A stretch of DNA of 64,000 bases from Methylococcaceae bacterium. Lineage in GTDB: Bacteria; Pseudomonadota; Gammaproteobacteria; Methylococcales; Methylomonadaceae. Position numbers and translations under genes: made by a program. The stretch is taken from NCBI GenBank assembly GCA_006844585.1, contig SPJM01000344.1:1-64000 (forward strand), given 5' to 3'. Below, one piece after another: positions 49,077 through 53,313 of the stretch. The notes beneath the pieces are model-generated. The model saw only the letters and a program-made list of their open reading frames with translations, made no database searches and had not been told where the DNA came from. Numbering within the stretch: the stretch's first letter is position 1; every line of letters starts with the position of its first letter.

Positions 49077-50072
49077 TTAAAACTTATCCAGATCATCCAG
49101 CGGACTCAACACGCCCTCGCCACCTTGCTTTAGGACATGCGTATAAATCATCGTCGTTTCTAAATCATTATGTCCCAACAATGATTGAATCGTTCTAATA
49201 TCCGTACCCCGTTGCAACAAATGCGTCGCAAAACTATGTCGAAAGGTATGCGCACTCACTTTTTTGACAATACCCGCTTTTTTCACCGCTTGCTTAATCG
49301 CCTTATTAACTACGGACGGGTCTATATGATGCCTGCGTTTAATCCCGCTGCGTGGATCAACAGATAACTTGCGACTGGGAAAAACATACTGCCAAGCCCA
49401 CTCCCGCTCAGCCTGTGGATATTTACGCGCCAGCGCATGAGGTAAATAGACAGAACCATAACCCGCCGCCAAATCCTTATCATGTATAGTTTTAACGCGC
49501 TGCAAATGATTCTCCAACAAAACGGCCACAGCCTCGGGTAACGGCGTTACCCGATCTTTATCGCCTTTACCACTACGCACGGTGACCTGTTTAAAACCAA
49601 AATCAATATCCTGCGCCCGCAAACGCACCGCCTCGCTAATACGCAGCCCGCAACCATACAATAATTTCACCAATAACTCAGGCGCGCTTTCCAACAAGGC
49701 CAGAACCTCTTTAACCTCCTCACGCGTTAACACCACGGGAATAGACTTTTCTTTTCGTGAACGCGTTGCCTGCACACCTTCCAGTGGTTTTTGCAAAACC
49801 TGTTTATACAAAAACACCAGCGCATTAAACGCTTGATTTTGCGTCGAAGTCGCCACATTCCCCTGCACAGCCAAATGCGTTAAAAAAGCCTCCACCTTTT
49901 GTTCAGGGTTAATCAGCAAAGTCTCCTTTGACTTGGCATGATGGAAACGCACATAGCGAGTTATCCAATCACAATACGCCCGTTCTGTATGAATGGAATA
50001 ATGTAATCGACGCAAAATTTCACGCGTTTGTTGCAGCAAATTTTGTTTAGGCGGGGTTGTTGACATAAGCAA
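49077..50072 (-). CDS. intI: Integron integrase (tyrosine recombinase)
   Basis: [50 protein letters not shown]; IntI-specific insertion [25 protein letters not shown]. Confidence 0.95.
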
Positions 50073-50156: not shown

Positions 50157-50301
50157 CAGGCAAACTTGCCTGATTTCACGGCCAATACTGTGGAATAGCA
50201 AGGCAAAAGTTCAGGATATTAATATCCTGTCAAAGTTGCCTGATTGTTCTGTCAATATCTAGAATATCAGGGCGAATTTGCCTGATAATAATAAGTTATG
50301 C
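50157..50301 (+). promoter_or_regulatory. Putative attI recombination site with Pc-like promoter
   Basis: TTGCCTGAT at 50166, 50236, 50278; palindromes at 50157-50172 and 50212-50229; core GTTATGC at 50295-50301; TTGCCT-N18-TAGAAT at 50236-50265. Confidence 0.6.
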
Positions 50302-50318
50302 TTTCAAGAGGCAAGGCA

Positions 50319-51362
50319 ATGCATATAGGGGAAGTTAGTTTCGCAACTCTTTCGAGATGGATTGAAGAGCAAGGCTGCATTGGAAGGGTTAAACGTAAAT
50401 GGGGTTGGTGGCACAATCCTGACGGAACAAAAGGGCTCGGTCCAATTCACGGAACCAGATATTTATACCGTGGCCAAAATAGACGCTACTGGTCCTGCCC
50501 TCCTACTATTTCGCGCAATGTATACACGCGGGCACATTCATTAAACGATCTAGAGTCGATTGAGCAATACAAAATACTTGATTCACTGGTGCGCTCTGAT
50601 TGGTATTGCGAGATTATCAAATCTCACCCAGCATTTCGGTGGGCAAACAACGAAAATTTCTCAATAGACAGGATGAGTCTTGCGCAACACTATGAGTTGC
50701 CTACTGGATATATAGATTTGACGGAGTCAATTGAAGTTGCCTTGTTCTTTGCGTGCTGTACCTTTACAGAAGGGGAATGGACTCCAAAATCCAAGGGGAA
50801 AGGTATTCTATATCGCCTTGATTGGGTTGAGTCGCCAGACAACATAAGATCAAGGATAAAAGCAATAGGTTTTCAGCCATTTGCTAGACCGTATGCGCAA
50901 TGGGCTTGGACAGCGGAAATGATATTGGGCGAAGATTTCGAGGATATTCCTGGTGTAGAAGCGGTTCTTTTCGATCATAACGAAGCGCTTGGAGAGAGGT
51001 TGTTGGATATGTTCAATGGTGGAGAAGTACTTATGTGCGGAGATCCGGTTTTTGACTGGGCATCAAATATAAAACACTCTAACGAATTACCCAGATCTAA
51101 TGGACTTGCTATCGTCGATGATATTTCAAACGATCCAATGGCGCTGCTTCCAAATGATCCAGAACTGGTATTGCGTGAAATTGAAAAGGCCAATGACGTA
51201 TCGTTTGTCGACAATCCTTCGTTTAGAATAAGTAGGTCAGAGATAGAAATACTGCAAAAGGAATGGGACTCAAAAGAGGAAGAATTTCTTGATTCTCTTA
51301 TAAACGATACTCAAGTTCAGCTTGTAAGGACTCGCAAAACAAACAATGAAAATCAAGCATAA
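50319..51362 (+). CDS. FRG-domain protein, integron cassette ORF
   Basis: RYLYRGQNRRYWSCPPTISR, AQHYELPTGYIDLTESIEVALFFACC; start moved from 50298 (ATG inside attI core GTTATGC) to 50319 behind AGAGG RBS. Confidence 0.85.
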   Translation: MHIGEVSFATLSRWIEEQGCIGRVKRKWGWWHNPDGTKGLGPIHGTRYLYRGQNRRYWSCPPTISRNVYTRAHSLNDLESIEQYKILDSLVRSDWYCEIIKSHPAFRWANNENFSIDRMSLAQHYELPTGYIDLTESIEVALFFACCTFTEGEWTPKSKGKGILYRLDWVESPDNIRSRIKAIGFQPFARPYAQWAWTAEMILGEDFEDIPGVEAVLFDHNEALGERLLDMFNGGEVLMCGDPVFDWASNIKHSNELPRSNGLAIVDDISNDPMALLPNDPELVLREIEKANDVSFVDNPSFRISRSEIEILQKEWDSKEEEFLDSLINDTQVQLVRTRKTNNENQA

Positions 51363-51991
51363 GGGGGATAGGAAGGGGTTTCTAACCCCTCCCTCCCACA
51401 CCACCCGGCATGCGGGTCCGCACCGGGCGGTTACCAAGAAAGCCGGACCGTAGTCGGACAAGTTAACCAAAGGCTAACTCTGAAAGTTTCAGATTCCATC
51501 ATCGCGCCTACCAACTCTTACGTGAACCGGTCGGCTCAAACTGAGAGATAGAGCATAATGGTAAACTTTCTTCCTTGGCTTCAGGCCTTCACTTCATCAA
51601 ATATGATTCCGCTACTATGCCGTCTGCTGACTTCTGCCCAATCACCTCATGCATTACTACATGAAGCGCTACCACCTGTGGTGGTCGCAAAGCCGGGCAG
51701 ATCTCCCCGGGTAAGAACATGATCTTTCCCTATACAACCGCTGCATTTACCATCCCCCAGAGATCTGGATGGGCTTCGTCATGTTGTGCTGACTCGCCCT
51801 GGGGTTCGGCCTTATATGCAATTTCTGTCCGTCGGCTCATAGGTTTGCACTTAGGCTTCTTTCAGACGGTCGGTCACCCTTCCGCCCTTGCCCTCGGCTA
51901 GTACTTTTTGAAGTTGCCAAATATGACCACTTCCCAGATAATGTACAGGGGACTTACACCCCATAAGATCATGCCCATGCCGGGCACACAC
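51362..51991 (-). mobile_element. ORF-less group II intron, probably group IIC (IIC-attC type)
   Basis: Minus strand: 5' GTGTG(TG)CCCGGCATGGGCATGATC, GGGTGTAAGTCCCC, CCGGGGAGATCTGCCCGG, GCAGAAGTCAGCAGACGGCATAGTAG, domain V/VI AACCGCCCGGTGCGGACCCGCATGCCGGGTGGTGTGGGAGGG...CCTATCCC; no maturase ORF. Confidence 0.8.
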
Positions 51992-51994
51992 AAT

Positions 51995-52066
51995 GCCATA
52001 AACGCGGACGTCAAAAAGCTGCGCCGCTCGTACCTCACTCTGCAGCTTTTTGACGCCGGTTATGGC
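51995..52066 (+). other. attC-like recombination site
   Basis: GCCATAAACGCGGACGTCAAAAAGCTGC / GCAGCTTTTTGACGCCGGTTATGGC imperfect inverted repeat with 14-bp perfect inner arm, extra bases on one arm, 19-nt loop; R' GTTATGG. Confidence 0.65.
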
Positions 52067-52287
52067 TGGCGTTATGCGTTTCAAAACTCTCCTCAGCAGT
52101 CGCGTAAAAAAGGCGCTGCCTAATCGGAAACGAACTCATGTTTCTTTTCTTGGCAAGTCCACCCCTCATCCATTATTTGAAGGGTTGGGTTGGTGGTAAC
52201 AGGGCGGGTTTCGTTCAGCATTTTTCAGGAAACAGTGTTCAGCTTATCCAGGTCATCGGGTATTTGGAACCAATGGGGTCAACCAAT

Positions 52288-53090
52288 GGGGTCAGACTCG
52301 ATTGTTATCAATACTATCCTTATACTTCTGAGACCTCTTATCTCCGCCACGCGCTTTTGGTTGTACTTGTCTATTTATTAATGCCTCTATTTTATATTTA
52401 AACCGGTCATCTCCAAGCACCCATGCTTTATTTGTCGCATTCCGAATTTCTTCTAATGTTTGCTTTGGAATGTGATGATCAAATAATGCAAAATAATTAG
52501 CCTGACGTTGAGAAAAATCACGCCCCAAACTTTTATAGGTACCATGTGGCGTTAACAACTTATTCTCTTTTCCTAGAGCATTATAATGGAAACTCGACCA
52601 AGGATAGTCTCCTGGACTTTTAACCATTTTCGCACGCACTGGGTTTAATTCGATATATCGGCTACAGGTCAATAAATAGCTTTCACTATCAAGCAGTGTA
52701 GCTTTATAACGACCTTCCCATAACGTACCTGTTCGCTGATATTGAAAATTAAAATACTGCACATAATACCGACCTATGTACTGCATAACCTTGCTAATTC
52801 CATTTTCTGACGTGGGGGTCATCAATAAATGCACATGGTTGCTCATTAAAACATAAGCATGTAGTTCACAGTGATATTTGTTGCACCCATCATATAGTTT
52901 TTGTAAGTAGTAATGATAATCTTCTTCTGCTGCAAATATTATTTCACGATTATTACCTCGTTGAATAACATGTTGTGGTTGCCCAGGTATTACATAACGC
53001 GGAAGTCTAGCCATTGGATATAATTGTTATAGTGATTTCTATAATAAATGTAGGATACCACATTTTACCAATTCAATCGAGTCTGACCCC
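52288..53090 (-). mobile_element. REP-associated/Y1 transposase element bounded by 17-bp inverted repeats
   Basis: GGGGTCAGACTCGATTG (52288-52304) and CAATCGAGTCTGACCCC (53074-53090). Confidence 0.85.
52292..53014 (-). CDS. REP-associated tyrosine (Y1/IS200-like) transposase
   Basis: HVIQRGNNREIIF, HAYVLMSNHVHLLMTP, YIELNPVRAKMV. Confidence 0.93.
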   Translation of the reverse strand: MARLPRYVIPGQPQHVIQRGNNREIIFAAEEDYHYYLQKLYDGCNKYHCELHAYVLMSNHVHLLMTPTSENGISKVMQYIGRYYVQYFNFQYQRTGTLWEGRYKATLLDSESYLLTCSRYIELNPVRAKMVKSPGDYPWSSFHYNALGKENKLLTPHGTYKSLGRDFSQRQANYFALFDHHIPKQTLEEIRNATNKAWVLGDDRFKYKIEALINRQVQPKARGGDKRSQKYKDSIDNNRV

Positions 53091-53313
53091 TTTGTAAGAT
53101 TATTGCTTAAACCAACATTTTTTCTGACTTTTCAAAAATATGAGTTACAATAGGAAATTTTTTAAAGCTTTTAGTTGGGCTTTAAAAGCGCAGCAAAATC
53201 ACGAAAAGGGCGCGGAACGAACGATTCTCGTTAGTTTATTGCCATTACATAGTTCTCTGCAAGCTTGCATGAGGTTTAAAACAGTTTTTTATGTCCATTT
53301 TTAGAGTACAAAC

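Follow-up and report, generated by a model that had tools for sequence, protein, structure and literature searches.

The window, by which we mean the whole 64,000-nucleotide stretch of DNA analyzed, comes from contig C273 (G000:C273) of a 3.68-Mb assembly in 376 contigs, and Methylococcales MAGs are among its relatives at the family or order level. It carries an integron with a single cassette, and an intron that is antisense to the cassette gene interrupts the attC site. The features of the locus are listed below.

49077..50072, minus strand: integron integrase gene intI (TIGR02249, 446 bits)
50295..50301, plus strand: core of the attI x cassette junction, G^TTATGC (from the sequence and the IntI cleavage rule)
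50298..51362, plus strand: FRG-domain cassette ORF, 354 aa (PF08867, 53.9 bits; PADLOC PDC-S15, 47 bits)
51357..51361, plus strand: gene-side portion of the attC R'' core, GCATA (from the boundaries of relatives and the joined flanks)
51362..51989, minus strand: ORF-less group IIC-attC intron, 628 nt (Rfam; alignment and consensus fold)
51914..51942, plus strand: putative Pout-like promoter sequence, TTGCCA-17-GATAAT (10 of 12 consensus matches)
51990..52077, plus strand: remaining attC, comprising AC of R'', L'', loop, L', and R' (covariance model R1, 75.4 bits, E 1.5e-19)
52071-52077, plus strand: attC R', GTTATGC, within the remaining attC
52292-53014: REP-associated Y1 transposase (21-bp inverted repeat at both sides, window 52284-53094)

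The integron and its cassette

The divergent intI, the attI core GTTATGC, and the FRG-domain ORF named in the original prediction were all recovered. The integrase is the sole TIGR02249 match above the family cut-off in the entire assembly. IntI cleavage and exchange fall within R', and a cassette's own R' therefore lies at the 5' boundary of that cassette; we take TTATGC (50296-50301) to be the R' of the FRG cassette. The ORF bears a weak resemblance to the PADLOC candidate defense family PDC-S15, and neither a close FRG homolog nor an intron-free FRG cassette was found in GTDB r220, plasmids, or 101 relatives.

Beyond the end of attC at 52077 there is no additional cassette, and the next feature is the Y1 transposase, whose flanking inverted repeat includes GGGGTCAGACTCGATTG. 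Other attC sites in the same genome (G000:C46:4308-4396, C224:5698-5784, and C17:119-179) are CALIN-like, residing on contigs that lack the only integrase of the genome.

Intron anatomy and the interrupted attC site

An ORF-less group II intron in antisense orientation had been proposed from the sequence, and three Rfam families (RF02001, RF01998, and RF00029) each exceed their gathering scores within it. The corresponding group II segments lie on the minus strand at 51883-51716, 51668-51584, and 51432-51363. No ORF of at least 150 aa is present in the intron, and no reverse transcriptase (RT) match occurs anywhere in the window. Group II ribozyme domains, including DV and DVI, are present according to Rfam and a consensus fold of six sequences. 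The domains were delimited by alignment with five full-length relatives and the consensus fold, and are given here together with the target-recognition elements.

51984-51706, minus strand: intron DI
51701-51633, minus strand: intron DII
51631-51584, minus strand: intron DIII
51579-51433, minus strand: intron DIV
51431-51400, minus strand: intron DV
51397-51366, minus strand: intron DVI
51784..51787, minus strand: EBS1, ACAA, which pairs with IBS1 TTGT
51990..51993, minus strand: IBS1, TTGT, which closes the 5' exon at the insertion point, conserved among relatives

The intron boundaries were set by alignment to about 25 related introns drawn from 60 relatives. At the 5' boundary most of these have GTRYGCCC after TTGT or a closely similar sequence, and the boundary consensus reads ..TTGT/GTGYGCCC.. 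at one end and ../TATGC at the other. The 5' end of the window intron accordingly lies at 51989, and its first nucleotides, GTGTG, agree with the GUGYG consensus. A 5' boundary at 51991 (GTGTGTG), as originally predicted, was rejected because homology to intact attC sites reaches 51990 and intron homology starts at GTGTGCCC. The predicted 3' end at 51362 was retained because the relatives end in ..CTACCCGAT/TA and only this position rebuilds a perfect GTTATGC core; ends at 51363 or 51364 would not do so. The resulting length is 628 nt. Both boundaries are independently confirmed by L139, a full-length relative of 636 nt that is 80% identical from end to end but resides at another site with both flanks different. 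Group IIC-attC introns usually have the ends GUGYG..AY, whereas the window intron terminates with CT (..CCCCCT), a dinucleotide common to the whole ORF-less family.

The insertion point corresponds to TTGT/T within R'' on the attC bottom strand, antisense to the gene, and the published target of IIC-attC introns is likewise R'' at TTGT/T of the attC bottom strand (PMC7923331). The IBS1-EBS1 pairing, TTGT with ACAA in the window, is short (3-4 bp class). EBS1 could be placed in 33 introns, among which TTGT targets mostly occur with ACAA and TGGT targets occur with ACCA in four of five cases. At the varying position this covariation amounts to 28:0 versus 1:4 (p 1.2e-4, relatedness not corrected for). 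IBS3 is T in nearly all intron copies and hence offers hardly any variation for EBS3-IBS3 covariation. The IBS1-EBS1 pairing that the prediction had proposed to test is present, and the RNA domains, antisense position, bottom-strand target, and IBS1-EBS1 pairing together assign the intron to the IIC-attC type, an assignment made from RNA and target rather than from protein.

We then examined attC with a covariance model, R1, for which 11 attC bottom strands from other genomes served as input and the window was left out. The minus strand at 52077..51984 scores 75.4 bits (E 1.5e-19) and the plus strand only 22.1 bits, as expected of an attC whose bottom strand is recombinogenic. An attC downstream of the gene was thus correctly anticipated, and the lack of a model hit that the prediction had named as refuting was not observed, but the extent of the attC is not 51995-52066; the site comprises 51357-51361 and 51990-52077. 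Nor does the intron lie 3 to 6 nt outside attC as had been suggested. Instead it is within the site and splits the R'' core as GCATA/AC, at GT/TATGC.

When the two flanks were joined in a script, the product GCATA/ACAATGCCATAAACGCGG...CCGGTTATGGCTGGCGTTATGC was a 93-nt attC in which R'' (GCATAAC) pairs with R' (GTTATGC) at seven of seven positions. The same R'' is also fully complementary to the 5' boundary of the cassette at 50295-50301, and joining the flanks changes the bottom-strand fold from -24.0 to -28.4 kcal/mol. An uninterrupted attC that is 83% identical was found, as the prediction had proposed to seek, in a genome of another genus (G021, L043:2978-3077), where it lies downstream of an unrelated 104-aa ORF. 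R'' contains the stop codon of the FRG ORF, and the final A of TAA is contributed by the intron end, such that the reading frame and stop codon of the gene are preserved despite the intron.

Because the two exon sides rebuild a perfect attC, and because the remnant on the gene side agrees with the 5' boundary of the FRG cassette, the data indicate insertion into a ready-made cassette. We consider it very likely that a non-autonomous IIC-attC intron retrotransposed into the attC of a complete FRG cassette, probably with an RT supplied in trans. It is quite unlikely that introns residing in two attC sites with equal R'' cores recombined, giving the FRG gene a foreign attC and leaving no mark. 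Equal R'' cores would hide such a swap, and arrays with multiple intron copies do exist, as in L170:1879-3234, where two consecutive attC sites in a single array each hold an ORF-less intron, one on either side of a cassette. However, the assembly contains no second copy of the intron; its sole other traces are 39 nt from the 3' end of an intron of this kind (G000:C286:11175-11213, L005) and a diverged RT-bearing intron on C170. Moreover, the R'' sequence GCATAAC, unlike the commoner RYYYAAC, matches both ends of the FRG cassette.

An ORF-less intron family with its own 3' end

A 3' signature, CCCCTTCCTATCCCYCTTA, was scanned across GTDB genomes and yielded 19 loci, none of which (0 of 19) has an RT match. 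Seven copies are full-length and ORF-less (the window intron, L139, L161, L164, L170, L171, and L206; 628-664 nt), and the six besides the window copy (636-664 nt) occupy different attC-like sites in different bacteria. Several further copies are cut by contig ends but have an unbroken domain IV. The hosts include a Hyphomicrobiales MAG (L161), a Gammaproteobacteria MAG (L164), an Escarpia spicata endosymbiont (L170), and Candidatus Thiodiazotropha (L171), with names given as in the MAG records, where short contigs may be misbinned. Phages gave no match to the intron, and plasmids gave only partial matches, none covering at least 80% of it.

Six of the copies (the window intron, L139, L161, L164, L170, and L171) were aligned and share 75-94% mutual identity. 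Their consensus fold comprises 196 pairs, and at 47 of these one or more sequences differ in both partners. About 20 such pairs fall in domain IV, where the paired stem is kept, which argues for a conserved protein-less structure rather than a fresh deletion. The family 3' end reads ..CCTATCCCYCT. These observations make it very improbable that the window intron is a dead leftover from the local truncation of an RT-bearing intron: most bacterial IIC introns do carry an RT and the 3' dinucleotide CT departs from AY, but six other full-length ORF-less copies exist elsewhere, and all five that entered the alignment likewise terminate with CT.

A second ORF-less IIC-attC group occupies several sites in one genome (G013; L030, L032, L034, L035, and L036). 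Its introns are 736-744 nt where complete, are 95-99.7% alike, and have the usual GAT end, and the genome also has RT genes. These copies represent a recent spread of protein-less introns.

Candidate sources of RT are common among the hosts. Of the 13 hosts searched, 12 have sequences that match the group II RT family, nine of them above the cut-off, and the window's own genome also carries group II RTs. Its RT-bearing introns differ in RNA from the window intron through divergence, and their RT copies are either broken or interrupted at a contig end; the best is GsI-IIC-like and split by a frameshift. GsI-IIC was the best match for both RTs that were compared with solved structures. Closer in RNA is L230 from Candidatus Thiodiazotropha, an intron that resembles the window intron in DI-DII (93% identity over positions 1-294) but differs from it in having an RT ORF and a truncated 3' end. 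The window intron is probably mobilized in trans by related IIC RTs.

On balance, we lean toward a dedicated non-autonomous IIC-attC family (628-664 nt, with its own 3' end and domain IV) that parasitizes autonomous IIC RTs and spreads with cassettes across distant bacteria in a SINE-like manner. Searches that rely on RT ORFs would overlook such a family. A limited literature search returned no description of an ORF-less IIC-attC family, a result that does not establish novelty. ORF-less bacterial group II introns have been called rare in reviews (PMC4424553), and a later survey listed 888 of 13,041 introns as lacking an intron-encoded protein (PMC8919778).

Cassette formation, mobility, and known introns

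The original prediction had read the locus as a product of gene-intron-attC joining. In the model of Leon and Roy, as reported in PMC7923331, the gene side of such a product is expected to derive from an insertion at a terminator. Applied to this locus, a terminator-side intron behind the FRG gene would have recombined with an intron at a lone attC. The order of gene, intron, and attC agrees with that model, and some hosts carry several copies of the intron family per genome. However, this order is normal for every IIC-attC insertion, and order alone is therefore no evidence of cassette building. The gene side consists of GCATA, which is exactly the missing 5 nt of R'' and complements the cassette 5' boundary; no terminator-like hairpin is present in 51340-52200; and a stop codon inside R'' is typical of a finished cassette, so that a cassette-formation intermediate is the least probable reading and a highly improbable one.

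Insertion into a finished cassette can also be assessed in related introns. Among 23 insertions with enough flank, nine have a gene-side remnant motif that matches the R' of the cassette itself, together with a downstream attC-like box, compared with 21 of 563 when remnants were swapped among loci as a control (Fisher p 3.5e-7, a value that serves as a guide because the test was devised after an earlier comparison and its attC criterion is loose). Note that the window is tallied among the 14 non-matches, as its 5' boundary is attI and has no attC box. The earlier comparison, of the gene-side R'' with R' of the neighboring attC, gave mixed results and was discarded as the wrong one, given that IntI exchanges within R'. 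The data suggest that insertion into an already complete cassette is frequent among IIC-attC introns. The present locus no longer counts as an apparent support for intron-driven cassette birth, and a simple test of the Leon and Roy model becomes available: whether the gene-side flank restores R'' and matches the 5' boundary of the cassette.

For retrotransposition into the finished FRG cassette, we propose the following path. The attC bottom-strand hairpin would present TTGT/T and act as the upstream stem-loop. EBS1 (ACAA) would pair with IBS1 (TTGT), and the ORF-less RNA would reverse splice into R'' at GT/TATGC, with a related IIC intron, present in this host or a previous one, supplying the RT for splicing and reverse transcription. 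With R'' parted from the rest of attC, excision of the cassette by IntI would become inefficient unless the intron is lost, and the cassette may thus have lost its mobility. The intron may also provide an outward promoter (51914-51942, plus strand), although here there is no downstream cassette to express. The putative promoter lies inside the intron and faces outward through attC; promoter-like sites in the region number two, versus 0.6 expected. The family would make both mobilization in trans and intron-caused immobilization of cassettes directly testable.

Protein-less introns of Thermosynechococcus elongatus belong to another group II class (IIB-type) and are found in one genome. They share an ORF deletion and have spread to several sites by means of the RTs of related introns (Mohr et al. 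2010, PMC2882425). The window family is likewise protein-less, but it is of the IIC-attC type and occurs in many hosts, and its mobilization in trans is inferred.

The closest known counterparts are the S.ma.I2-type IIC-attC introns, which share with the window intron the antisense orientation, the bottom-strand R'' target TTGT/T, and the separation of a gene from its attC (PMC7923331, PMC8876359). S.ma.I2 itself separates aadB from its cognate attC, and an outward promoter has been reported for IIC-attC introns (PMC8876359), a feature to which the putative promoter of the window intron corresponds. The gene-intron-attC arrangement is of the already known IIC-attC kind. Unlike the S.ma.I2-type introns, the window intron has no RT ORF, is 628 nt long, ends in ..CCCCCT rather than ..CCCGAT, and resides in the one-cassette integron of a MAG from a methanotroph order. 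Less ordinary is the family of ORF-less introns marked by a distinct 3' end, a probable new variant that merits a survey in its own right.
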